Assembly: GCF_032854445.1 (NCBI RefSeq) | Contig: NC_088300.1 | Location: forward strand, 13,177,191-13,241,190 | From: Liolophura sinensis | Taxonomy: Eukaryota; Mollusca; Polyplacophora; Chitonida; Chitonidae | Reading direction: 5' to 3' | Length of the DNA: 64,000 nt | In this document: positions 10,501-56,500 of the stretch, one piece after another | Layout: every line of letters begins with the position of its first letter | Position numbering within the stretch: position 1 is the stretch's first letter | Notes under the pieces: model-generated | Seen by the model: only the letters and a program-made list of their open reading frames with translations | Told to the model about the DNA's origin: nothing | Databases searched by the model: none | Program-made: the position numbers and the translations under genes

Positions 10501-13500
10501 ACTATCAGCAGGTTGCTGTAAGACCTTCCCACGTCCATCTGGAGTGGAAGCCAGCAAAAGTTGTTGGAGAATATCAGCCAGAATGAAATTTCGCAAACAG
10601 ACACCCTAATAATATAGGTTTGCGGTAGGTACGCCCGTGGCTTTATTGATACTAGAATGTGGAAGACTCTTTCTGTAGACTGGTCGCCATCCTTATAGAC
10701 AAATAGTGACTTTACACCTTCAGGTTATATTCTTGGAGGAATGTAAGTTTGAAACATCTGGTGGACTGTACGTCTGTATCATTTTGAGCTCTACATCTTA
10801 CCACGAGTCATTTGGTAGCGGGTAACATGGACATGCTGATGAGTTGACCCCGCGGCTTTGGTAAACCACACCGCTCGTCGGAGAACAGGTATGGTAAAAC
10901 TCAACTGGAGATTGGAAGAAACACAAGGCACGCATGCTTTCAAAGATAGAGAGACGGGTGTGAAGTCATCAAAGCCCGTGATGGCGTCCGAATGGAAATT
11001 TAATCGGGAACTCGTGTAACCTGAAATACAAGACAATGGAACACAAAATTTAATTGTAATTACTGAGTGAAACTTGTTTTCACAAACTGTTCTAAGACAG
11101 CGTTTTGATAATGCTCTATACGTAACACAAAGGAGATAACTATGGTGGCTTTTAACGAAACCGCGACCTACGTGCCTTCGCGGAAGACGCGGAGTTCACC
11201 AGTTCGCCATCTGCAAAAGTGAACAGGTTGCAACCTCTTGCTGAGACTAGCCACAAGAGTACTACCAAAAACCATGTATGTGACACAGAGCTTACCCACA
11301 ACCTGCATGTTTGTGGAAATGTCCCGTTTTCCAAGACAGGTTTCAACTTTCACTTTGTCAATGGAATCCAAGAACTCCTTCGTTCCATCATTATGGGGTA
11401 AAATTCCTGGCACAAAATCACCTCCGGCAATGTACGAGTCTTGGTAACCAAGGGCAAGGTCTCGCTGTGGTTTCGTGATTGTAACCTGATTGTGTATTTC
11501 TGACAAAAACTCGTCTCTTGTTAATACATATATAACATTACTTATAAAATAGTATAAGGCATCAATATACGCTCTCAGTAAGTTCTCTCCGCTTGATGAT
11601 ATCACTAAGCACTGTTCTGGACTCATACACAGTAAACTTTGTATCACTGAAGTATAATTTGTCTTGAAAGCCTCTTCAAAATTAGTCTGACATTTTCTTA
11701 AGAAGTATAATAAACCGCAGTATGTTGCATTTTTCTCCACACATACATTGTCTAGCTGTGGTCGCGTCAATTGCTCCACTGTTACACCGAGGCGAACCGT
11801 ATCGGACAATACTGTATATAAGCCCCGCATGTCTTTCTCCGTAAAATCAGAAAAGTTCCTTGCCAATAAAATACTGTTCTTGTAGTTTGTATCGTTTTTC
11901 CCAATCCAGAAGCCAAAAGCGAAATTCTGCAGCTCGAACTCCACCCCAGTGGTATTTACGTTGTGTAAAGTCAAAGAACCCAGTGCTGAGTAAACTTCAT
12001 CTGTCAGACCGTGAAATGCTTGTTGTAATCTGCGCGTAACTTCATCTATCCACTTTGGAATCAGAGAAAACATAAAATTTTCGTCGTTCTTGTACTCGGT
12101 GATCTTCTTAAGAAAACTACTGTTGATGACTGTTAGCTGCAATCATAAAAACACAGTGATTAGATTAAAAGATTAGTATTTTCATTTGAGTTTCCATTTA
12201 ATCAAAGAACACCCAGGCTCTGCCCGGTTCCCTCCCGCCATAATGCTGGCCGCTGTCGTATAAGTGTCGTATAAGAGCACGACGTAAAACACCAATCGAA
12301 TAAATAAATAAATAAATAAATAAATAAATCAAAGAACAGCAAGGATATATGAACTTTGACCATCCCACAACCAGAACGTTATGCCTTACACGGGTTTATA
12401 GAGTGTTTTCATTCTAACACATTTGGTCACCCTTTATCGCAATTCATCAGATTGTTTTCACTACTTTTTACAGTAAGTGTTAGGCCTACCAAGGTCTCAC
12501 CAGTCTACATGACTGAACACTTATAATTATATTGCAAGTCCATTACGCATGCGCCTCTTTTGCATCTAAATTTCACCTCTGCTTAGCCTTGTATACCTTT
12601 TGCTGGTTAACCCAACAATTTACACACAATGACGCCACTCTTCCTTTCAGTGTTCAGGACGAGGGTGAGGGATACCTGGGTGGGGGTAGTGGGCAGGGGT
12701 AGGCAGTACTTACAGAATCACTCTCACTACAATGTCGTCCACACTCCCGATGAGTAATATCCCGCTGAAATTGCTGTGACGCCATAACGGTATAAGATAA
12801 GGTATGACCTTTGAAATGGACGTCAACCTTTCGCTGTGTGGTCTTATATACATATGGTCCTCTTTGAACAACCTGGCATGGAAAAAATATAATATTATTT
12901 AAAACATTACGCTGAAATTCGCTTTAACATTTTCGGTTTGTCCATTGCATGTTCCCTGTTATTGATTTTGTGAGGTCGAGTAGATACTGTAGATGTAATG
13001 GAATCAACACATAGATACACTGATATAGAACTCTACTCACATTCTACAGTTAACTACATATGTATTTATATATTTCCTATTGTTATACACACTCTGTTAA
13101 TCTGTTACGTCCCAGATATTATGAGAATAGCAGTTGTTGTTTTTGACCTAAAAAAAATAAAATTAAGCATACCATTTTTGGAAAGCATGTCTGCGGTCAA
13201 GGATGATCGCAACTACTGGCACTGCACATATAATCCAGTCACAGCTAATGTGCACTCAGTGCAAGACAGTGGGTTTAACCCAGATCTGTTATCACCATGA
13301 TCATCCAACCAGAGTCCATCACTATGAATTTCATAACAAAGATGAATCATGATGTCACTATCGATATTTTTGTTTGTTCTATGTAGTTATGTTTTAGAGC
13401 TAAGAATTCTTTTTTTTTTACGGAACATAGAAATATAGTTGATTTGGAAAGGAAGTGTGAGTATAATACCTTTGGAACTTCACCGTTGAACAGAAATCCG

Positions 13501-28296: not shown

Positions 28297-28720
28297 GCAG
28301 ATATGACTTGTCGCCTCTGTGATGTGACCTGTCACCACCATCTTAATATGATCTGTCACTACCGTGATATGACCTGTCGCTGCGATGATATAACCTGTCA
28401 CTGCCGTGATATGACTTGTCATTGCCGTGATATGGCCTGTCACTGCCGTGGTATGACATGTCACTGCCGTGACATGACCTATTACCACCGTGTTAAGACC
28501 TGTCACTGCCGTGATAAAACCTGTCACTGCCGTGATAAGACCTGTCACTGCCGCGATATGACCTGTTACTGCCGTGGTATGACCTGTCATTGCCGTGATA
28601 TGGCCTGTCACTGTCGTGATATGGCTTCTACCGCCGTGTTAAGACCTGTCACTGCTGTGATAATACCTGTCACTGCCATGATATGACATGTCACTGCCGT
28701 GATATGACATGTCACTGAAA
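28297..28720. repeat. Minisatellite, 21-bp unit, about 20 copies
   Basis: The unit is close to ACCTGTCACTGCCGTGATAT plus G. As 21 is a multiple of three and the unit lacks stops, both strands stay open (a heptapeptide like CHCRDMT on plus, AVTGHIT on minus). These are not genes. Confidence 0.95.
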
Positions 28721-29959: not shown

Positions 29960-30004
29960 ATGGAGCGTAACTCGGACATTCCTCTTTACTTTGTGCATTT
30001 TAAG
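29960..30004 (+). CDS. Candidate first coding exon of the ninjurin-like gene
   Basis: A short ATG-started frame (15 codons, ending YFVHFK) stops exactly at a GTAACA donor in phase 0, the phase required to splice to the exon at 31283. This would give a 308-aa protein. Nothing else supports it: the peptide has no recognisable feature and such matches occur by chance. Other first exons may lie further upstream or in the gap. Confidence 0.25.
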
Positions 30005-30705: not shown

Positions 30706-31282
30706 CTAAATTACGTTTCGGTTTCCATTCACCTAAATATGTCAGAAAAGAATAATAACATCAAAGAATATTGATACACTACCAAATACAATCAGTGTTA
30801 ATATTTTGGCATAAAGTAAATGAGGTTTCATTGACCTAATTTATCTATACTTTGTTCATTTCACTGTTTATTAACACGATGGGAAGTATGGTGTAAAATA
30901 TCAAACAAAAAAAAATTATATACGAACACGATGCGATGGAAATTAGGTTTATGGGTCGGGGAAACTGGAAGACCCGGTGAAAATCACCAATATTTGACAT
31001 GTTAGTAACAGATTTTCTCACGTGTGATGTACATACTTGCACCTTCGGCCGTTTTACCGGCTGGAGTTGTGTCTTTGATAGTTCGACATAAATACTCCAC
31101 TTATCTCCGTACTGTATAGTATATATATAGCTAAAAGTGAATAAATTTTTAAAGAATGACAGCCGATTTCATGTTAAAAACCTTGTCAGACAGTGGGAAA
31201 TTCCTTTTTTTACACATATTTTTGCAATAATCCTGACTATAACATACGACAAATTGCACAAACATATGTTGCTTTATTTAAG

Positions 31283-31366
31283 ACAATAGAGGCCATGAAA
31301 TTCGACCCGGAAGAGCATATTTCCTACAATACCAATGCGGAAAGAGATACCACAGATGCGGCAGAG
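31283..31366 (+). CDS. Ninjurin-like gene, repeat exon A
   Basis: 28 codons, phase 0/0, acceptor TTTATTTAAG, donor GTAATT. It encodes TIEAMKFDPEEHISYNTNAE and then RDTTDAAE, the standard cassette form: acidic start, PEEH, SYNTN core, Thr-rich acidic end. It contains no glycosylation sequon. Confidence 0.75.
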
Positions 31367-34300
31367 GTAATTCATTCAAGAAGCTGCTGATAAACTTCTA
31401 AAACATTTTCTTCAGTGAGAATAGTATATGACATCTTCTTACATGTCTTGGTGTTGATGCATTTATATTCATATATATAAAATTTTGAGCTGGCTAACTA
31501 TTGTTTAAAAGAGCATAGAAATTTGTGTACAGCTTAGGTGTCAGAGGTCTGGTTTAAGACTGCTTTGCTATAAACTTCTGGACTGAACACTTCTTGATTT
31601 TTTTCAGTTGACACAGACCTCACAGATAGACCAAGACGAGGATAAATCCTACAACTCCAACAGCAACAAGACTCCAGTGGAGTCAATTGAAGTGGTAATT
31701 CATTTCTGGAAGCCGCCTACCGACTTTTCAATGTATGTACGCCACTGTGAACATTTATCATGTCTTCGCATATTTGGCAGTGACTTACTCTTGGAATGGT
31801 AATAAACCTAGCATATGTGGGATAGTGGCTACATCTATAGGTATCATATTGAGTTAGTTAGCTATTGTCGAAAAGAGAAAGGAAGTTAGTGTGGAGCTTG
31901 GGCCTTAGATGTCTTGTTGCTAAAATGGTGAATTCCATAAGTGTTTCTTAATTCATTTCAGAAGACAGAAGATGCAAAACCAAAGCAAGAAGAGCATATA
32001 TCCTACAACACTACTGAGGATAGCGCTGTAACCGATTTAACGGAAGCTGTAAGATCATAGATTATGATAAGCTTTTACTACATGTACTTCAGTAAGGCCT
32101 GTGCAATGTCTGTATACATTGATAGCACTTAGCAGGCCTACCTGAGATACCAGACAATAACCGATACAGTTTCTGTCATTAAGACACACATGTACAGATG
32201 ACCCAACAACGTGTAGCATCAAACATAACCAAATATACGCTCATGTAGTCTCTGTGTAGAACGTTCATACGTTCATATCGTACTGTTAAAATAATATAAC
32301 TACTTGTTCTTAGTACATTTGCGTGAACATTCTTGATCTACTTCAGGCGATTGGGGCCAAAAATCTAGATCCGCAGGAACTTGGAAACATAGATGTATGT
32401 GCGGCAAAGGAAGTGGTAATTCATTTATAGAATACGCACAGAATATTCTTAATATTGTATTTTAGTGATAAATAGAAAGTCTTTATACCTTTTATTACCA
32501 TATCAATTAATTACCTCTTGCATTAATTAAAATTTCACATATTTTACTTCATACATCTAAGATATACCTCGCATTCAGAGTAGAGAATTAAGTCTGACAG
32601 CTATAAAACACGACTTACGTAAACGTTTTTTGATTTTTTTACAGTCGACTGAGGACACAAAGCTAAATCCACGAGAACATAATTCCTACAACACCAATGA
32701 CAATAAGGCTCTAACCGATACAACGGAAGTGGTAATCCATTTTAAGAAATCAGTTAAAGAATGCTTCCTAACACTAATTATGTACTGTATGCATTAGCTC
32801 CACACCTTTTATAGTTACCGAGTGTTGCATAGCAAAGCAGTTAATTACCCGGGTTAAGTGCATACACTGTGCAAGAGATTAAACAGTCTAAATTTCTGCT
32901 CTGTTTTACAAGTCATCAAACTTCGTTAACTAGAGGTTTGTGAACTGTTCTTTGTTAAATTGAATAATTTGTGTGTCAAAAAGCCTCCCCACGTGTCATT
33001 AAGACATTATTAAGACGCAGCAGCTATAGAGTATGACTTCAGTTACAACAAAAGCTATGTGTTAAGTATACATGGGTATATGGCTATGATTTATGTTTTA
33101 CATTTGTACATTCTCAGAAGGTTCATCCCCGAACATTATCCATAATGTCATTATAATACAACATAATTATTATAATACAATTTCCCGGAGACTAAACAGT
33201 TTAGCTAACTTCTTCTATTTTAAGACAATGTTAATGTTATTATGATGTTTTTACAGATATTTTTCGTAATTAACTGGCAACTATAGAAGACTAATTAAAT
33301 AAACATTTCTTGACTCCAACTTAGACAATGGAGGCAGGAAACCTTGGCCAAGAAGAAAAGAATTCTCACAGCTCCAACGTGAACAGATCAGCAGCCCAGG
33401 GAACAGATACGGTAAATCATTTTTGGAATCCGCTAAAACTGAACGAGACGCTTATCAATCCCCATATCTGTACTTCTCTTGCATTCATTTCGCCTCGTTA
33501 ATGTTTCGTGATTTGTACCTTATTAAATTGCAAAAGTTTATAACGTTGGACTAATAACAGCACACTTAAGTATAAATCCATCAGCAGTTGACTTCTATCA
33601 ACGTCCATTATGTATTAAGTAATTATTTTATGTACCATTTGGAAATGTATTACTACTCAACTAAACTAGTGCTCAAAAGAAAGTATACAGCTGTTTGATC
33701 AGACATCAAATAAAAACGGAAAGAAATATTTGAAATTATTTTTAATTCCATAAGAATATTCCATTTCACCTGAAACGTCCATACATACAGTTCATTAAAT
33801 GGTGAAGGTTTGGTTTGATGGTCAGTCAAAGAGATGTGGTGTCAACAGAACATTTACACATTTGCAAAATTCAAATGAAGCATTTTTCCCTCTGGGAATG
33901 TCATTCAAATCATGCTCAGTAGCGAGTGTGGCCTCCATTGGCATTGATGCAGGCCACAACACGTCGCCGCATTGATGACGTCAGGCGTCGAATGACGTTA
34001 GGTGTGATTCGTTGCCATTCTTGTTGGAGACACTCTTCCAGCTGTTGAACGGTCACAGGTGGCACTGGCAGTCTTCTGACTTGTCTGCCCAGAAGTGGTC
34101 CCACAAGTGCTCAGTTGGATTGAGGTGGGGTGAACATGCCGGCTATGGTAAGAGATCGATGTTGGCGTTCTGTAGAAAGTTGTTCGTCAATCTTGCAGTA
34201 TGAGGTCTTGCATTATCATGCTGGTACAAAATTCCTCTTTGCTGTTGGTGACTACAACCGGTCGTAAACCTTCATCCGTGTATCTGCGAGCATTGAGGTT

Positions 34301-36233
34301 CCCATGAATCACCACCAGCCTCGTCTTCAGATCGCAGCAGATGCCTCCCCACACCATCACACTACCACCTCCAAACGCTCGAACTTGCTGAACGCAATTT
34401 GGCACCAAACTTTCTCCTACACGCCTGTATACCCTAGCCCGACCGTCATTTTTGTACAGGCAAAACCTGCTCTCGTCGGAGAACATTACCCGTGCCCATT
34501 CACGCCTCTGCCAGCGTAGAACGCGCCTGGCCCATATCAGCCGACGACGTTGATTTTGAGGCGTTAGATAAACTCCACAATACGGTCGACGTGCCCTAAT
34601 ACCGTGTTGACGTAGTCGACGGTAGACTGTGTGTCGACTAATCGGGTGCCCTAGTGCCGTCGCCGCCGTTGACGTTGCCGTTATGTTCCGATTGCGGAGG
34701 TGAATGGTCCGGATGTGTCAATCTTCAGTGGGGGTGGTGACGCGTGGTGGACCGCTCCTAGGCCTGTCGGATGTAACGCCTGTCTGCCGGAGTCGCTGCA
34801 TAAATCTGACGATAGTTGCTCTTGTGCAACCAAAGGTTCTGGCAATGGCGGCGTTTGTCGCTCCTTGCTGGGCCATGCGAACAGCTCTCTCTCGCTCAAC
34901 TTGGCTCAAACGTGGCATGCCTCTGGTGTTTTTCTGACGACTGTGTTCCTAACGTTTCCCGTCGACTCATTTAACCGCCAAAATGCACGTTCATGTCGTG
35001 TTACACGTGGAAGGGCCATTTTTCGATTTTATGCTAAGTTTAGGCAAATCTTGCTTTGTTGGGCCAGTTTGTTCCCTGGATGGATCGGCGTTTACACGGG
35101 TAATAGGGCTCATCATGCATAATTTCTCAATTTTTTACTTTGCGCGATTTTTATGTATTTGTTTTGGTGTATACTTTCTTTTGAGCACTAGTTTATATAA
35201 AATTGTTCATGCATATATTGTCCGACATGTTCCCATGTATTAAATAATGTACTCTTTTTTCATCAAAAAATGACCATAATATAAACGTGGAATCAACACT
35301 GATTCACGATGTTGATTAAACATTATTAAACACACGTTTAATAAACGTGATATTGCGTTGCTCAACGTCACGACCTGATTCGACATGATATCAACGTTGC
35401 ATCGTGTGCCCACTGGGACGTGTCAATAAACCGAACAGACAGAAGTCATTAGACATACTCTAATCCCAACAGCATGTAGCATCATATATAGGCAGGACAA
35501 GGTCATGTCTAATTATCTCCATCTAGTTACGTTTTAGTGCTGCTTAATTTCAAAATAATCGTTCTGAAATATCACTGAATATGTTCCAGTGTAATGCAGC
35601 TAACAATAATTGGTTGAATGTGTTGTGCTGTAATACACCTGATCATTCCTGATGATGGCAAAATAAAATGTTGAAATACGGAGTGAAAATGAAGCCTTCG
35701 TTTTTCGGAGTTGCACAGTTGGTATGTTTAGAACGATTGTCACACTTTACGACGTTTTTCTCGGTAAAACCACTGCTTTGGGACATAACCAGCCCCCCCA
35801 ACTTTGTTCTGAACATGAAATATCATATTGTTTCTTGATATTTTCGTTTCAGACGGATTCGCCTCAAAATTCCTCAGTTAAAAAATACAGCTCGAAAAAT
35901 GCACTAGCAATGGTGATGGATTTTTCGATATTGTCTAACAGCACCGTGATGTTGATAGACGTCATCCAGCAGTGGCAGTTAACGACAGATCCATTGTTGA
36001 CAGTTCTCCTTATCTTGCTGCCATTCGTCATGTTTTTACAACTTCCGGTGGCCATTTTGGTGATGCTGGCAATCCACGGAAATTACCATGAGAATACAAG
36101 AAGACACATCCAGAATAGCATTTTGGCACTTTTGTCATTGTCTACTGCTCTTATGCTGGTTTCAGATTTGTTAAAAGTGAAGACAGATTCAGTCCAAGTT
36201 GTGGTGGCACCCTCAACTGGGCGCAAAGAGTAA
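31283..36233 (+). CDS. Ninjurin-like membrane protein with a tandem array of repeat-encoding exons
   Basis: Identified coding exons are 31283-31366, 31608-31694, 31962-32048, 32347-32415, 32645-32731, 33325-33411 and 35853-36233. Joined, they give 293 aa plus an undetermined N-terminus. The last exon encodes the ninjurin core: KKYSSKNALAMVMDF, the amphipathic stretch before the first membrane helix, then helices at about exon residues 47-74 and 86-108. Vertebrate NINJ1/NINJ2 are cell-surface homophilic proteins of about 140-150 aa; NINJ1 oligomerises to rupture the plasma membrane in lytic death. Here the short extracellular N-terminal region is replaced by six homologous 23-29-residue segments, each one exon and each phase 0 at both ends. 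NINJ1 has Ser-Lys-Lys where this protein has Ser-Lys-Asn. The gene is tail-to-tail with the SLC46-type transporter at 37101. Membrane-core assignment is strong; the true start is not established. Confidence 0.85.
31608..31694 (+). CDS. Ninjurin-like gene, repeat exon B
   Basis: 29 codons, phase 0/0, acceptor GATTTTTTTCAG, donor GTAATT. The core is KSYNSNSNKT, with one N-K-T glycosylation sequon, and it ends ESIEV. The frame reads through the donor for another 36 codons, which is why it looks longer as a simple open frame. Confidence 0.78.
31962..32048 (+). CDS. Ninjurin-like gene, repeat exon C
   Basis: 29 codons, phase 0/0, acceptor AATTCATTTCAG, donor GTAAGA. It encodes KTEDAKPKQEEHISYNTTED, with an N-T-T sequon in the core, then SAVTDLTEA. 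It is closest to exons A and E. Confidence 0.78.
32347..32415 (+). CDS. Ninjurin-like gene, repeat exon D (shortened, divergent)
   Basis: 23 codons, phase 0/0, acceptor GATCTACTTCAG, donor GTAATT. It keeps the first half (AKNLDPQE) and the end KEV, but the SYNTN core is lost and a cysteine appears (DVCAAKEV). The 18-nt shortfall is a multiple of three, so the frame survives. Confidence 0.68.
32645..32731 (+). CDS. Ninjurin-like gene, repeat exon E
   Basis: 29 codons, phase 0/0, acceptor GATTTTTTTACAG, donor GTAATC. It encodes STEDTKLNPREHNSYNTNDN and then KALTDTTEV. This is close to the consensus of the array. Confidence 0.78.
33325..33411 (+). CDS. Ninjurin-like gene, repeat exon F
   Basis: 29 codons, phase 0/0, acceptor CCAACTTAG, donor GTAAAT. 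It begins TMEAGNLGQEEKNSHSSN and has an N-R-S sequon. Its start (ACAATGGAGGC) resembles exon A (ACAATAGAGGC) more than B to E, suggesting that the outer cassettes share an origin. Confidence 0.75.
33664..35193 (-). mobile_element. Tc1/mariner-type DNA transposon (about 1.53 kb), inactive
   Basis: Terminal inverted repeats of about 26 bp (start AACTAGTGCTCAAAAGAAAG) lie at 33664-33689 and 35168-35193, each flanked by a TA dinucleotide as expected for Tc1/mariner target duplication. Between them, on the minus strand, is a broken transposase. The element sits in the last intron of the ninjurin-like gene, opposite to its transcription. Confidence 0.88.
33916..34918 (-). pseudogene. Tc1-like transposase pseudogene
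   Basis: The frame starts at 34918 with a helix-turn-helix region (MPRLSQVERERAVRMAQQ, AAIARTFGCTRATIVRF). It stops early at about 34718 and continues in another frame with the catalytic block FSDESRF and VWGGI. It shifts again near 34240, just before the HDNARPH block carrying the second catalytic Asp, and ends with LNPTEHLW (third acidic residue, Glu) and a C-terminal tail finishing at 33916. With at least two frameshifts it cannot make an active enzyme. The DDE residues can still be traced, so decay is fairly recent. Confidence 0.85.
35853..36233 (+). CDS. Ninjurin-like gene, terminal exon with the ninjurin membrane core
   Basis: 126 codons plus TAA, phase 0, acceptor TTTTCGTTTCAG. It holds the whole family core: YSSKNALAMVMDFSILSNST, DVIQQWQ, a long hydrophobic helix (LLTVLLILLPFVMFLQLPVA...), a polar loop HGNYHENTRRH, a second helix, and a short tail ending GRKE. 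The 'Y.SK..A...MD...L..N...L...' pattern is the ninjurin signature. Confidence 0.85.
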   Translation, partial: TDSPQNSSVKKYSSKNALAMVMDFSILSNSTVMLIDVIQQWQLTTDPLLTVLLILLPFVMFLQLPVAILVMLAIHGNYHENTRRHIQNSILALLSLSTALMLVSDLLKVKTDSVQVVVAPSTGRKE

Positions 36234-36511: not shown

Positions 36512-36517
36512 AATAAA
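36512..36517 (+). promoter_or_regulatory. Polyadenylation signal AATAAA for the ninjurin-like gene
   Basis: The hexamer lies about 280 bases after the TAA stop and is followed by a TTGTTGTTGTTCT-type GT-rich stretch, the usual layout of a eukaryotic 3' processing site. The assignment is by position only. Confidence 0.55.
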
Positions 36518-40100: not shown

Positions 40101-41276
40101 TTCCAGTTGGCTGAACTATATTTACGTTATCGTTAGGAAATCCAAAGACTTACAGGTAAACATGAGAATGTCATTCCATGCAAAGCCCTGAACAACGACT
40201 CCAAGGAAAAATGATATGGTCGAAAGCATTGCGATCTTGGCGTCAGGGAGCCATCTTTGCAACACTGTTACCAGGATAAGCCCACCTAAGGCTGCGGAGA
40301 CTCGATGTGCCACCCCGAAGTACCCAATCTTCACTGAATCCCAACACAACGGCGAATTAAGCATGAACAGTATGTCTACAGAGGGCTTCCCCAAGCCAAT
40401 CAGTGCCAGGATAAAGAAACTGCAACCGCCGATCTGGAACAAAAACCTGTTCACTTTCTTTGAAAAATAAAAATAGAAGGTTGAATAAAAGTACTGCTTG
40501 ACGCTCAATGTCGTGTAAGTCGACACAACATGCGATTCGGGTAAGATAAACTGTATTATGCCAGCGTCTAGGAACAGTAATGCTGTGCCGACTACAAAGG
40601 GTATGGTGTAACCCCAACTGTGTATCACATGTCCCAAAGCCACGTCCGTTACACCCAGACTGAAAGCGATCACAGTTTCCACCAGGGTTATTCGAAGCGA
40701 GCGTGAGTTACCTCCCTTCGTCAAGTCGGATGTGTAAGCAAACATACCTATCAGAAAGGTGACAAAACCACCGGAAATGCCTTCCAGGAAATGACCGATG
40801 TATACGAACTGAATGGGCAACGTCCAGTAGGAAACAACTGCATATGTTACGGTCATGGCAATGAAACCAAATACTGGTAACAGGAAGAGAACTTTTCTTC
40901 CAACGCGGTCCGAGAAGGCTCCAAGCAGGAATATGACCACGATGCTGGGGATGCCACTGGTCATAGACAGATACATCTTAATGGTGGCCGCTCTGGACTG
41001 AGATTCTATCATCACTGTGTAGCTTAGACTGCTTGTGTTAGCCTCACATCTAGTTCCGGTCGACGATATCTCGGTGATGTTCCACTCCAAACGGACCTCC
41101 TTTATGAAATGTGCCACCAAATACTGGGAATATGTTGACGATATGATCATCATGGACGAGACAAATAACGCCAGGACGCCCCATATGACATGGAATCGCC
41201 TCCCAAGGTTAACATTGGTATCCCGTAGGTCAGTCTCCTTCTCGTCTGATATCACGCTCTTGTCAGCAACAGGCAT
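37101..41276 (-). CDS. SLC46-family (proton-coupled folate transporter-like) MFS transporter, 484 aa
   Basis: Coding exons are 41276-40154, 39524-39441, 38706-38550 and 37191-37101, with consistent phases and AG/GT borders (donors GTAAGT, GTAAAA, GTAAGC). The SLC46 family covers plasma-membrane and lysosomal carriers for folates, steroid conjugates and muropeptides. Visible marks: a cytoplasmic N-terminus; TM1 (about 30-50); a long first luminal loop with sequons at N66 and N80; the MFS motif GAFSDRVGRK (119-128) between TM2 and TM3; several further hydrophobic helices; the central loop; and a last half rebuilt across three introns (MFTSVTVGAFASA, SKLTPQGQHGAMFGSVAVIE, then TNGIVFNVIYRSTL). 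The tail is a charged 29-residue cytoplasmic segment. Family members are usually 450-490 aa. The ATG at 41276 lies just inside an acceptor (TTTTAACAG before 41296), so a 5' untranslated exon probably lies upstream. The substrate cannot be told from sequence. Confidence 0.85.
38550..38706 (-). CDS. SLC46-like gene, coding exon 3
   Basis: 157 nt, phase 1 to phase 2, acceptor CCCTTTACCAG, donor AT|GTAAGC. It encodes the last membrane helices (MFGSVAVIEAITML, VYMFMGGLLLVAVGLF). Reading through the donor gives an immediate ATG TAA, that is a stop after GLFM. Confidence 0.82.
38803..38967 (-). repeat. tRNA-SINE family 1, tRNA head half
   Basis: On the plus strand it runs from GAGCCCGGGGTAAACC to CGCTAGCGCGCAAACCAACT and GAGCCACAGAGGCCCC, so the tRNA-like promoter region is intact while the 3' end is missing. 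It lies in the SLC46-like intron between exons 2 and 3. Confidence 0.88.
39441..39524 (-). CDS. SLC46-like gene, coding exon 2
   Basis: 84 nt, phase 1/1, acceptor TTATTTCTGCAG, donor GTAAAA. It encodes VTVGAFASAAISLVRAILSK and then LTPQGQH, the family 'RS..SKLV....QGK' region that follows a membrane helix. Confidence 0.82.
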
Positions 41277-41296
41277 GTCAACGGGCGGAAGCCTTA
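40154..41296 (-). CDS. SLC46-like gene, main coding exon
   Basis: The acceptor TTCTTTTAACAG precedes 41296. The initiator MPVADK begins at 41276, and 374 codons plus one base run to the GTAAGT donor (40153-40148). The open frame continues upstream to a Met at 41414, but that part crosses the acceptor and looks like intron, so the internal Met is preferred. It carries about ten of the twelve membrane helices. Confidence 0.82.
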
Positions 41297-42153
41297 CTGT
41301 TAAAAGAACAACGACATACATGAAACGTTTGACACATTTATAACATAAAAATTTCTTGAAATATTCCGAGAGGATATAATACAGGAGGCGTACTGACAGG
41401 TATCGATATCTCATGAAGATAGCATGTAGGCCAACTTCAAAAAGGTTTTACATTATATACAAGAAAAAACTCCCTTGTTATACAGAAACCATTATCTATG
41501 GATAATATTTGGTTGTGATATTCTTATTTTTTTCCCAACGGACATGTTAAAAACTTGGCATGCTGTCCAACTTCCACATCATTTAGGTTTATAAATTATT
41601 AATAGGCAAATTTCTACCCTTTTTAACCAGGAAATGCATGTGTTTTAAACAAGGATAGTTGTTATGTTCGACGTTTTAGATCATGTGACCTGAAAACTGC
41701 AACTCCTCACCACATTCTTAGCCGTTTGGGTATAAGTACATGTAAGTCCATTGTAGTCCGATACAATATGCGCATGACAATTAAATGTGTACATGTATGC
41801 AAGCAGACACTGTTCTGTTGAGAAACCTGGATTCTCGGGCGCCGATTGTTACAACAATGGAGTAATAAACAGGTAACATTTAAGACCGACAATAAAGCCA
41901 GGTGTTGACTCAAACATTCTTCTGCCAGTCGTCAAGCACAATGAAAATTAATCCCGGCTAAATCAACCCAAGGCCAATGTCCGAAACAACGTTCAACACA
42001 GACAACCGGAGATCTAAGAAAGTGTATGAAGTAAGATGGATAGATTGTTAGGGATTCATATAAAGAAATGCAGTTAACACTGATCATGTAGGTCACAAAT
42101 TGACAAATATTAATTCTTTACTATAGTTTTATCAGAACAGAAAATAAGATTTG

Positions 42154-43090: not shown

Positions 43091-45221
43091 CTGTTTGTCC
43101 AATATTTCATTGAAGTATTTCTGCAAACGTATTTCCGCCCGAGCATAGCGGATTGGGCGAGAGTGGGATTCAAAAACACAATATCATTTTTATTTCAGAC
43201 GATAGCAGATAACAGAAATCAAACGACCTAGTTTACTCCACTGTGACATTTTACAAACAAAAGGTGTTTTATACATTTAGTATCGGTTACTTTGTCAAAG
43301 TGTTTTATATTTCCTACCTTCTTCTTTCCGCTTTGTCATTCTTGTCGCACTCGCTGAATTATTTCAAAAGAAAGTAGTTTCAAATTTTAGATATCCGTTT
43401 ATGTGATTATCTGCCATGTGATCAAGTTTAGATAATAAGTCACGCGCGGACAGCTGGAAAACAAGTGGCTGCTGTTAATCTACTTAGATAAACGTCCGTA
43501 ACATGATAACTTTATTGTTGTCTGATTTTTTTGTGTTGTTGGACAGTGACACAATTTTAAAGGTCCAAAATGTAACCTCATTTCATATACAAATGTATAT
43601 CTAACACATAAAAACTGTTTATATTTTGATAATAGCCAAGGTTTTATTGCTTCCGTCTTAGAATTCTAGTGGTTACATGTATTTCATTTATATCCTTTAA
43701 TGATCAGCAGTTTATATGTACAGGAAAAAACTGGATAAGTGATTATGGACAGAAAAATGGTTTATGGATAAAAAAGAAAGCCATACGAAAATTAATACAG
43801 TTCGTATAGAATTGTGTCTAAACGTAGATGCATTTCTGTTCTGTGCGAAGCATATGTTTCACGAAAGTGTTTTAGACTGAAGTTGTAAAGTAGCACTGAT
43901 TAACTGGGATATTAACAGTTTTGTTTTGAGAAGACAAAAATAAGATAGCACCACTTCCTAATTTAAATCCGTCATATGTTCATTAAATCCGTCACATGTA
44001 TCAGCGTGTTGACCTTGAAATCAACACTTGCGGTCACAACGTCAAACTAAGCATACTGGGTTGTTTTACCTCTGACAGCTTGTTCTGATATTCTCCGGCA
44101 ATTTTGTAGTCTCTGAGGCCATATCTCAGATATTACGAGCTACTGTGGATGAGACTAGTGTTTTTATAGTGGATATGCCTTGACAGACGTTCACTGCCTT
44201 GAAAGGGTTTGCTGCTCGAAACGCCATTCCATCGTCGGTAAGTTCAATTCATTTTGGCAGTCGAGCGGGAATGGCCGGCGAAAGAAGACATATGTGGTCA
44301 CCATCTCAGACACTGATTGCTATGCCCCGTGTGTTTGACCTGTAATGACCACCAATCTAACGAGAGATACCTAGGGCATGACCTATTCACATCGACTTGA
44401 TCAACCGTTGCCGCCATGAAAATGGTACTTCCAAAACTAGCAGACCGTGGATCGGGCTTTCGGAAGTGATGTCAAAGGGACGATCTCAAGTCACACCATC
44501 CGTTTTTTTTTGTTCAGTGTTTGATAAATGGTGTTCCAGGAACAATTGTCTGCCGAATCGAGTTTCTGCACAGACTGCAGGATGTATCATTTATAACCCG
44601 TATCGTGTTTGATCTTCCTTCATCAATAACACTCCACTGACTGTAATACCATCTGAGAGGAAGGGATTTATCACTGGAGTTAGAGATCAACATTTTCGTC
44701 ATGTTAATTCTGCACAGAAAGGCAGCGAATCTAATGGCATTTCTTCCTGCTGGATCCCATCGCGTCAAAAATGTTTTCATTTTTTCTCTCTCATAACCAT
44801 TCGTCTTTGTGTTAATTGGCAGGGTAGAAGTAGCATTCTCTATATAGGCCTACTGAATAGGAAAATCTGACGTATACTCTACATCAAACTTGCTTTCCTT
44901 ATACAGCCTCGTCTTGCATATTCCGTGAACAGTGTCTTTCTTCATTAGCTTTATATAAACAAGGGGAAACTAACAGTTGTTCACACTTGGTGTATATAAT
45001 TTTGGAAACTTCATGCCCTATGTATCCGACGGTAGTCCGGGCTTTAAGAAACCGAATGAATCTCGTGGAAGCCCACAAGAAATCACGTATGTAGTATCTC
45101 ATCAGCTTTCCAATACGTAATATTCCAATGAAATTAAAACTGAAAGTAGGTATACAGGTTGAATGTGAATATGGGAAGTCAATCAACCGATTATTTCCTA
45201 CGCAATTCACAGAAGACAAGT

Positions 45222-45918
45222 TCCATAAACATGTATATACATTACATGTACTACTATCGCCCTGCACAGTTCTATACACGCGTACGTACATTGCATGTAC
45301 TACTGTCGTCCTGCACAGTTCTATACACTTGTACGTACATTAAATGTACTACTATCGTTCTGTACAGTTCTATACACATGTATATACATTAAATGTACTA
45401 CAATCTTCCTGCACAGTTCTATACACGTGTATGTACATTACATGTGCTACAATCGTCCTGCACAGTTCTATACACGTGTATATACATTACATGTACTACT
45501 ATCGTTCTGCACAGTTCTATACACGTGTATATACATTACATGTACTACTATCGTCCTGCACAGTTCTGTACAAATGTATGTGCATTACATGTACTACTAT
45601 CATCCTGCACAGTTCTATACACATGTATGTACATTATATTTACTACTATCGTCCTGCACAGTTCTATGCACGTGTATATACATTACATGTAGGTTACTAC
45701 TATCGTCCTGCACAATTCTATGCACGTGTATATACATTACATGTAGGCTACTACTATCGTCCTGCACAATTCTATGCACGTGTATATACATTACATGTAG
45801 GCTACTACTATCGTCCTGAACAGTTCTGTGCAAATGTATGTACATTACATGTTCTACTATCGTCCTGCACAGTTCTATACACGTGTATGTACATTACATG
45901 CACTACTATCGTCCTGCA
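45222..45918. repeat. Minisatellite, 49-bp unit (53-bp variant), about 14 copies
   Basis: The unit begins TTCTATACACGTGTATATAC, continues ATTACATGTACTACTATCGT and ends CCTGCACAG. Several later units carry four extra bases (GTAGG.TACTAC). 49 is not a multiple of three, so the same unit is read in all three plus frames, each open. Each unit holds a palindromic core (ACACGTGT and ACATGT). Confidence 0.95.
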
Positions 45919-53500: not shown

Positions 53501-56500
53501 ACCCCAGGCGATAGACTTTCTTTAGACAGAACATGCCACTAATGGCAGCACATTTAGGACAAATGTACCTTTGAGACACATAAAGCGACAAGAGAAAACA
53601 GTTAACGAACGCGTACGTAGCAGCCTGGGAACCTCCACTGCCAGATGTGTTAAGACTTCTATGTGAACAGTTTTCAAAGAGACGAAACAATGTTGTGGTT
53701 GCCTACGAGAGAACCTAGTCCAGTGTAACAGTGGAACTGGGCGAATCGCGGAGCGGCAATCTGCAAGCTATCTCACAATAATTATGACAAATGCGATTTA
53801 GATTGGCGAGTGTCCAAGGGAATAGGTCGACCAGATATTACTTTCCTTCGATCAGGCCGTGTAATCAGATCTAAGCGATTTACACCTACTTTGAGCATGA
53901 TCGGCTTCACTTGTCTCCGGGCGTGGGTTTGCCCGACGGCTTTCAGGACATTGTCCAGAACATATGGATTGTTCAAGCTCTCCACTGCCGCTCCTAATCC
54001 CTCCATCACGGTAGTGGCGTGCTTTTGTAACATCTTCTCATCGATGACAAACTCCAGTCGATTCTCCTCGCTGATGGTTATTATTTTGGGGAAAAGACCT
54101 TTCATTTCGGCATTGGTCTGAAAGAACCTGAAGAGTAAAAGTAAATAACAGGAATTAATACAAATGTATATGTAAAATACCTGTTTTGTGGCAGTACGGC
54201 TTCTTTTTGCGGTAACTTGGCAGGTCTTAGGCCCACTAACATTGTATGCCGCCATCATAACAACACCTACAACAATAACATCATGGAAATAGAGGACTCC
54301 GTATTCCGTATTACCGTTAACACTGTTAACAGCTTATCTATCAGAAATGAAAATGATCATACATTCCCTACGACTTGTTTTAAAACGCAAAAACTCTTAT
54401 TTTAAAGTCCTGTTTTAAACATCTTTCAAATTTTTTGTAAAGTAACTGGTTATTGAGTACTAATCATTGGTTACTCTTGCGAGTGCTGCTTCTGTGTCTT
54501 AGCAGGATAATAAGTTGTAAAACGTCGATTTTTGAATCCTTCAAAACCAAATCACTACAGTAAAATTTCACCTACGTGATTTTGGACTACTGGGTATGTG
54601 ACGAAACATTTTGCGGTTTCTGATGTGACGCTGTCACATTGCGTGTTATGAGACTATACGACAAAAAGCACCAAACTCAAGTATATATCAAGCGAAAGGC
54701 TATTTAACACTGTCCTGGAAAACAAATCGATATTTTATTAGAATGTTTTAATCTATTAAAATCGAATGCTTCGGCTGTCTGCTTGACTTACAATAGTTTG
54801 TTTAGAGGTCTGTTGGATCCACAGCTCTATATGAGTCTGTGTTTTGGGGTGCAAAAGTCTTGTAGTCTGTCTGTGTTGAGGGGCAAAAGCCTCATGTGAC
54901 TTTTCAATGATCACAATATGGTCAGAAAAGACCACAGTAGAATCTATCATTTCACATACATTTAACCTCGGTTAAATACATTTTAAAACATTGATTTGAT
55001 CCAGTATCCTGGACAATATGTGGTGATCTTTTACCTGACATATACTTAACGTTAATGTTTTCTTTGCCTTTGAGTTGAAGGCCTAACTGTACCTGTGATC
55101 CCTGTCTCCGGTGTGAGCGGACATCTAGCATACTGATGTTTTCATTACATAGATAGGTATTTAGAAAGAAAACAGATGATCAGTGTGTGAAAGCATATAT
55201 CCATTACTTTATCAATGCACCATTGTTGAATTGTAGCTATAAATTTGCTGAAACATTCTATTTGCCCAGACTTGCCCAACAAATATCACACTAAAATTTA
55301 AATGTTTGCAGCGTAAATAACCATCGTATGTACAATATTTTTTTTTATTCTTTTCTCAGAAACTTAAGCCCTATTCACACTAGCATCACAACCATAACTA
55401 TGTCGTTTTAACATGACATTCATGACATTTAGCCTCGGAGAACTGATGTCGTCCCAACATGTAGCCAGTCGTGTGAATGATCATACAGAACAAAGAGTGC
55501 TCTATTTCTACTAGCGAAGGAGTCATGTTTGTCATGCCACATTTATGGGTGGAGGAAACCGAAATGGCCTTGCGGGGAGTATGATGAGTATGTTTAAAGC
55601 TGTCAAGGATCCTGGGAGATTAGTAAATCTATGCAACAGCTCTTCTACGATGACCCACAGCACCCATTCCCACCAATGACGTTTCCGCCGGCTTGATATT
55701 TCTCACTGTTATTGAGGCATTTTTATGTGTTGTATATATATCTTTGAAAGAGGTTAGAAATAGAAACACCCCCCCCCATTCAGAAATGGTTCAATATTGT
55801 ACCCTCTTGAAGCAGAAAGAGTTTATAATAGAACAAGGTAAATGGTTCTGTATAGAACCATAGTGAGCGAAAAGGTTCTTTGTAGAACCATATCTAAAGG
55901 GTTCTATATTGAATCTTTTCAAAAGTGTTCTTTATACGTCGTATAAGTGAAATATTCCTGAGTACGGCGTAAAACATCAATCAAATAAATAAATAAATAT
56001 AGATGTGTAACATGTGGTTTAGTTTCACAAAACATATTCGTTTTTCAAAACTGCATTTAAATCCGAGTAACAAGAGGCCTTAGGAATTTTGCGGTAAGCG
56101 CTGTGTTTGATACAGCTTAAACTGACACTTGTATTAAGATACATTTTTTATTTATTTCATTGGTGTTTTACGCCGCACTCATGAATATTTCACTTACACG
56201 ACAACTGCCAGCATTATGGTGGGAGGAAACCGGGCTTATATCATTGTACGCATATATGTAAGTATGCTTGGGGTTCGTTATACTTAAGAATTTTTCAGAA
56301 GTCATTATGTGTGTGTACAAGTATTGTGTCTTGTTGTGACAGGGCGATTCCATGCCGCCAAAGTGTTGCCGCCACTGAAGTATCATGCCGAAGACAACAG
56401 ACATGATACCCCATCTAGTCACATACTGACATTTGGCCAACCGGTCATGTATTCTTGATGTAACCTGTCATTGCTGAGCGCCAAGCGAGACTGATGATAA

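Follow-up and report, generated by a model that had tools for sequence, protein, structure and literature searches.

The window analysed here is a 64,000-nucleotide stretch of the Liolophura sinensis genome (C6:13177191-13241190), which was searched as an assembly of 609 Mb in 632 contigs. The plus strand of the window carries an array of six short cassette exons (E1 to E6), followed by a single terminal exon, the core exon, whose product contains two hydrophobic helices and resembles ninjurins. The array, the core exon and the poly(A) signal beyond it are arranged as follows.

31283–31366, plus strand: cassette exon E1, 84 nt, 28 codons (24 codons if read from the in-frame ATG at 31295)
31608–31694, plus strand: cassette exon E2, 87 nt, 29 codons
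31962–32048, plus strand: cassette exon E3, 87 nt, 29 codons
32347–32415, plus strand: cassette exon E4, 69 nt, 23 codons, 18 nt shorter than the 87-nt cassettes
32645–32731, plus strand: cassette exon E5, 87 nt, 29 codons
33325–33411, plus strand: cassette exon E6, 87 nt, 29 codons
35853–36233, plus strand: terminal (core) exon, 126 codons plus TAA, encoding a linker, a helix and two hydrophobic helices; ninjurin-like
36512–36517, plus strand: AATAAA poly(A) signal downstream of the core exon, a sequence pattern

The six-exon cassette array is genuine. An earlier note, made from the letters alone, had described six short phase-0 exons of whole codons (28, 29, 29, 23, 29 and 29), and both the coordinates and the codon counts proved correct. 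An acceptor AG precedes all seven exons and a donor GT follows all six cassettes, with phase 0 throughout. The note's description of the splice signals as good holds to that extent, but the donors, which are mostly GTAATT-like, agree with the consensus at 5 to 7 of 9 positions and are a weak point of the array, and the acceptor of E1 (tttaag) is poor. Frame 0 is open in 6/6 cassettes, with stops in frame +1 of all six and in frame +2 of three; for comparison, of 1270 arbitrary AG...GT segments of cassette-like length elsewhere in the window, 322 are open. E4 and E1 fall short of the 87-nt cassettes by 18 and 3 nt, respectively, both multiples of three. The SYNTN sequence, which had been proposed as the core of a common motif, is exact only in E1 and E5, is altered in E3 (SYNTT), E2 (SYNSN) and E6 (SHSSN), and is absent from E4.

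For E1, a role as first coding exon is more likely than one as internal cassette. Its in-frame ATG at 31295 has G at −3, its acceptor is poor, as noted above, and a possible promoter element lies upstream.

31120–31125, plus strand: TATA-like hexamer upstream of E1, 175 nt before the ATG at 31295; a consensus match only

An internal origin of E1 is possible, given the likeness of its 5′ flank to the end of intron 5 (score 50, against a maximum of 37.5 in 60 shuffles), and a search for a first exon further upstream gave one weak candidate, at 29960–30004. The protein read from 31295 with all six cassettes has 289 residues, of which 163 precede the core exon.

The relationship of the cassettes was assessed with leave-one-out profiles, for which the column alignment was built with all six cassettes at both the DNA and the protein level. 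At the DNA level, profiles of five cassettes with 40–45 nt of flank were used to seek the sixth in the window. The left-out cassette was the top match in 6/6 runs (E-values of 2.4e-18, 3e-20, 1.5e-15, 5.7e-12, 1.6e-29 and 1.8e-14 for E1 to E6 in order), and the lowest E-value of a non-member in any run was 0.36. At the protein level, 5/6 cassettes ranked first of 3468 open reading frames (ORFs), with E-values of 1.7e-9 (E1), 0.017 (E2), 2.7e-4 (E3), 6.3e-10 (E5) and 0.078 (E6). The E4 peptide ranked only 45th of the 3468 (E 65), and the membership of E4 therefore rests on its DNA, not on its peptide. Together these comparisons point to a shared origin of the six cassettes, in which E4 has drifted; as judged from these alignments, all six are descended from one ancestral exon. 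The exon duplication proposed at the outset is thus upheld by DNA for every cassette and by peptide for all except E4. Adjacent exons are homologous and symmetric in phase, as in tandem exon duplication. Every exon is 0-0, with lengths of 84, 87, 87, 69, 87 and 87 nt, so that any subset of cassettes stays in frame, as had also been claimed.

The cassettes appear to diverge as coding sequence does, which supports their translation short of proving it. Pooled over the 15 cassette pairs, which are not independent of one another, the proportion of synonymous differences (pS) is 0.63 against 0.42 for nonsynonymous differences (pN), and the excess of changes at third codon positions has p = 0.006 in a test that permuted labels within columns. 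Weighing against a coding history are one pair of the 15, E4–E5, in which pN exceeds pS, and three pairs, E2–E3, E2–E4 and E2–E5, in which the two values lie within 0.04 of each other. A strict A-B-A-B two-exon unit, suggested by a 680-nt spacing, was rejected, as the identities of exons and flanks, taken with the matches between introns, give no single consistent order.

The array seems to be confined to this locus. A profile search of the window found no further cassette copy above noise, and genome searches with the cassette peptides found no convincing copy beyond the locus, the four weak matches (E 7.4 for one, E 0.34–2.5 for the other three) each containing stops. Cassette profiles run against 40.6 kb around and upstream of the genome's five clear ninjurin genes, covering 2.2–9.6 kb before each core, also found nothing, the best E-values being 0.44 for DNA and 1.8 among 2207 ORFs.

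It is possible, though on balance unlikely, that each mRNA carries one or a few cassettes, as mutually exclusive or alternative first exons, and that the rest are decaying, giving a protein of near-ordinary ninjurin length. Both E1 and E6 carry ATGs, E4 is without the conserved core and its peptide is unrecognized by the other cassettes, the donors have the limited consensus match given above, and tandem exon duplications have been linked to mutually exclusive choice (PMC9013439; this and the other papers cited here are represented by excerpts). Set against decay of part of the array, all six cassettes keep frame 0 open, lengths in threes and AG/GT ends.

The earlier note placed a ninjurin core in the last exon. 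The genome contains five clear ninjurins, two on C7 and three on C9, each of which singly matches the Pfam Ninjurin family (PF04923, curated cut-off 26 bits) at 93–134 bits, and a profile built from the five matches human NINJ1 and NINJ2 among the sequences of solved structures. With this five-paralogue profile, the score of the core exon was reached by 12 of 20,000 full shuffles of its sequence; when NINJ1 was added to the profile, none of 20,000 full shuffles reached it. With the latter profile the core ranked sixth of 719 ORFs (E 0.0018), directly behind the five paralogues, the set comprising ORFs of at least 50 residues from the window and six fetched loci (L010–L015). The match runs collinearly across the helix, the first transmembrane helix (TM1) and the start of the second (TM2).

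The best independent support for ninjurin identity comes from gene structure. In 5/5 clear ninjurins a single-exon core lies behind a predicted phase-0 acceptor, placed 10–19 codons ahead of the Y/F in the YATKK motif. The core exon in the window has the same organization, with its phase-0 acceptor 11 codons before KYSSK; the acceptors of the paralogues were chosen by eye. Hydropathy of the core gives two peaks, preceded by a predicted helix, a topology that is common, and the TM1–TM2 loop, with two K/R and one D/E, fits a cytosolic loop.

Residues that are important for the NINJ1 filament are K45, D53, I84, Q91, G95, T123, I134 and A138 (PMC10307626). Aligned with NINJ1, the core is identical at 21 of 109 positions; the two paralogues counted reach 47 and 40 of 110. 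Residues corresponding to Y41, K44, D53, Q91 and T123 are retained in the core; among the other filament positions I84 is replaced by L, I134 by V and A138 by S. The clear paralogues themselves vary at three of these sites (T123 is T in 1/5, A138 is S in 3/5 and I84 is L in 3/5), which therefore say little, and all five keep K45, Q91 and G95. An NST sequon in the core, tried as the equivalent of N60, is out of register in the alignment.

Several observations weigh against a ninjurin core. The core exon scores 15.6 bits (E 0.015) with Pfam Ninjurin, below the cut-off, and MerC and EBP match it at similar E-values; the joined protein scores 13.3 bits, and MerC ranks first there. When local composition is kept by shuffling in blocks, the core score is reached by 22 of 20,000 shuffles with the five-paralogue profile and by 83 of 50,000 with the profile that includes NINJ1. 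Each half of the core is weak on its own: the N-terminal part is equalled by 1048 of 20,000 shuffles and lies outside the first nine of the 719 ORFs, and the TM part is equalled by 253 of 20,000 and ranks ninth. In the alignment K45 is replaced by N, F135 by K and G95 by A, although in our reading the K45 equivalent would be K if the gap were shifted by one residue. The core lacks two features of the paralogues, the NIFIT/SFG end of TM2 and the N-A-S-Q-L stretch. The core exon was not among the matches of a genome-wide Ninjurin search run with E up to 10, and the same search gave 22.5 bits to a low-complexity junk stretch on C6. That stretch, at C6:47.7 Mb, was considered as a sixth ninjurin and discarded, as it contains a stop and no gene.

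Alignment of the core with the five clear paralogues in hhalign gave P 0.062, and a phmmer search of the core against 177,635 distinct sequences of solved structures gave no match at E up to 10. The hydrophobic moments calculated for the first helices are no better than those of shuffles, as is also the case for NINJ1 by the same measure. A single-sequence AlphaFold2 model places helices at residues 14–42, 47–75 and 80–114, and is poor, with a mean predicted local distance difference test score (pLDDT) of 63 and a predicted template modelling score (pTM) of 0.34. Structure searches with this model gave no ninjurin among the 17 matches listed or the 30 chains aligned, a result that, with such a model, excludes nothing.

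A single gene in which the array is joined to an unrelated small two-TM protein would account for many of these points. The likeness to ninjurins would then come from topology and composition, and the arm would be a lineage-specific mucin-like surface repeat. The sub-threshold Pfam score with two unrelated membrane families matching alike, the hhalign value, the loss of most conserved ninjurin residues, the higher-scoring junk stretch and the weakness of each half all agree with it. It explains less readily the collinear match, the rarity with which full and block shuffles reach the score, the intron place and phase shared with 5/5 paralogues (at predicted acceptors) and the retained equivalents of Y41, K44, D53 and Q91, and it is judged a minority possibility. 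Ninjurin ancestry of the core is modestly favoured overall. The original assignment has weak support: the two-TM topology, a few residues and the position and phase of the intron agree with it, whereas the Pfam score of 15.6 bits against a cut-off of 26 and the hhalign P do not bear it out. Since its score lies under the curated cut-off, the core is here called ninjurin-like and is not filed as a member of the family; the clear members of the same genome share its single-exon core and the equivalent predicted phase-0 intron, but score 93–134 bits where it scores 15.6.

Four of the clear ninjurins occur in two close pairs, at C9:15.57/15.58 Mb (L011 and L012, about 7.8 kb apart) and at C7:44.29 Mb (L014 and L015, about 2.5 kb apart), and the fifth lies singly at C9:0.46 Mb. 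A candidate first exon of a clear C7 ninjurin is found on the minus strand of L014 at 4272–4225, reading MELLNEDYSLVSNNKE and followed by a phase-0 donor; its likeness to E1 is by eye only. The proposal that the cassettes are copies of an ordinary ninjurin first exon was dropped, as the C7 candidate fails the cassette profile, with 2415 of 5000 shuffles scoring as well.

The array and the core exon are separated by the last intron, intron 6. E6 and the core exon are compatible in phase, and the core exon has a pyrimidine-rich CAG acceptor at 35853. Parts of introns 3 and 6 resemble each other, and a transposable element occupies much of intron 6.

32116–32295, plus strand: part of intron 3 resembling part of intron 6 (local alignment compared with shuffles)
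35383–35559, plus strand: part of intron 6, before the core exon, resembling intron 3 (local alignment compared with shuffles)
33662–35195, no strand assigned: Tc1-like element in intron 6, with terminal inverted repeats that match perfectly over 28 nt, TA flanks included

The local score of the intron 3–intron 6 alignment is 54, and the maximum of 1000 dinucleotide shuffles is 44, so that 0/1000 reach it. A genome search with intron 3 matched only itself, from which intron 3 is not a common repeat at the sensitivity of a search that also missed the copy in intron 6. The likeness of the two introns suggests that the array and the core probably belong to one gene, and with the phase fit it sustains the earlier tie between the array and the two-TM exon that follows. 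Counting against it, the acceptor flank of the core is unlike those of the cassettes, 823 of 3243 sites scoring as well, and an acceptor flank common to cassettes and core was unsupported in an ungapped comparison. The Tc1-like element makes up about 63% of intron 6 and contains a match to HTH_Tnp_Tc3_2 (E 1.9e-10) in an ORF at 34187–34717 on the minus strand.

Separate transcripts, with the cassettes ending elsewhere and the core beginning at a start of its own, such as the ATG at 35724 (ORF 35667–36233, 169 residues), would suit the frame that is open for 62 codons ahead of 35853, the roughly 1.5 kb of Tc1-like sequence now between E6 and the core, and the dissimilar acceptor flank, but are improbable in view of the acceptor at 35853, which lies where 5/5 paralogues have a predicted acceptor, the phase of E6 and the sequence common to introns 3 and 6.

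Together the six cassettes encode 167 residues with a net charge of −22, mostly Thr, Glu, Asn, Ala, Asp and Ser; they include a single Cys and three N-glycosylation sequons. In a Pfam search of the joined protein the only match touching the cassettes was Fer4_16, at E 0.82 and below cut-off. The cassette arm is expected to be a disordered spacer and is presumably extracellular.

The arrangement proposed here is one plus-strand gene in which an array-built arm is carried on a diverged ninjurin-type two-TM core, a model whose chances we regard as evenly balanced. Its last exon would encode the helix and two-TM core, of ninjurin type and much diverged, with both termini outside the cell. The arm would have grown by tandem duplication of a phase-0 exon of about 29 codons with its flanking intron, giving up to six related acidic units rich in Thr, Glu and Asn and up to 174 residues before KYSSK. 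Because every cassette is 0-0, splicing could vary the length of the arm by exon inclusion and leave the core unchanged. The arm might act as a flexible, negatively charged and partly glycosylated spacer that sets reach in cell–cell contact, and might hinder or permit packing of the core into oligomers. In this model we infer the splicing of E6 to the core, the surface display, the ninjurin ancestry, the spacer function and the splice variation.

Work on known ninjurins indicates what such an arm could do. NINJ1 polymerizes by means of extracellular helices, which insert into the membrane; residues 1–38 are disordered, and truncation showed them to be dispensable for filament formation (PMC10307626). 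The N-terminal regions of NINJ1 and NINJ2 have 44 and 30 residues, respectively, and the NINJ1 N terminus moved onto NINJ2 is reported to confer rupture activity by a mechanism that is unclear; the role of the disordered N terminus in membrane rupture is said to be unexplained (review, PMC12547243). In Drosophila NijA the N-terminal extracellular domain is about half of the protein (PMC11664169). Deletion of the NijA ectodomain abolished surface localization and killing on overexpression in cell culture, and the ectodomain alone does not kill (PMC3460944). From this literature on NINJ and NijA we infer that a long acidic arm would alter contact reach and crowding of the core. In molluscs, ninjurin-1 is among the responding genes in scallop and oyster (PMC6281612, PMC7578350).

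The proposed protein has partial counterparts. Like vertebrate NINJ1 and NINJ2 (PMC10307626), it would have a disordered extracellular N terminus, a helix region and two TM helices, but its arm of up to 174 residues compares with 38–44 disordered residues in human NINJ1, and K45, G95 and F135 are not kept as aligned. With NijA it would share the two-TM ninjurin form and an extended extracellular domain at the N terminus; unlike NijA, it would have an arm of repeated exons, which the excerpts do not describe for NijA, and its core has departed much further from ninjurins than have the five clear members in its genome. As a class, tandemly duplicated symmetric exons share its neighbouring homologous exons of the same phase, any subset of which stays in frame (PMC9013439). 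The earlier note regarded the architecture as undescribed. A long ninjurin ectodomain is already known from NijA (PMC11664169), but a ninjurin with a repeated-exon array is not described in the excerpts of the literature searched, gene databases lying outside that search, where an annotated orthologue may exist. Only the repeated-exon construction of the arm would thus be new.

A gene with a multiplied N-terminal exon would offer a natural series of lengths and charges with which to probe the role of the N terminus. A speculative extension, of low probability, is that it encodes a ninjurin bearing as many as six acidic units in a chain selectable by splicing, and so provides a graded series of membrane-rupture or adhesion proteins. 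If true, the arm that reportedly decides between lytic and non-lytic ninjurins in vertebrates would be under exon-by-exon control. If the core is not a ninjurin, the locus would still be a clean case of arm growth by an exon array on a small membrane protein.

Elsewhere in the window, an Rfam scan gave no matches, and three open frames on the minus strand and two minisatellites were observed. At the minisatellites the long ORFs are spurious, because the repeats are open in several frames.

11168–12142, minus strand: 324-amino-acid open frame with no Pfam match at E up to 10
28346–28717: minisatellite, 21-nt unit repeated 17.8 times
40122–41447, minus strand: open frame of 441 amino acids with similarity to a major facilitator transporter (MFS_1, E 2e-5, under the curated cut-off)
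45219–45918: minisatellite, 49-nt unit repeated 14 times
53782–54333, minus strand: open frame with a globin exon (PF00042, E 1e-9, above the cut-off)

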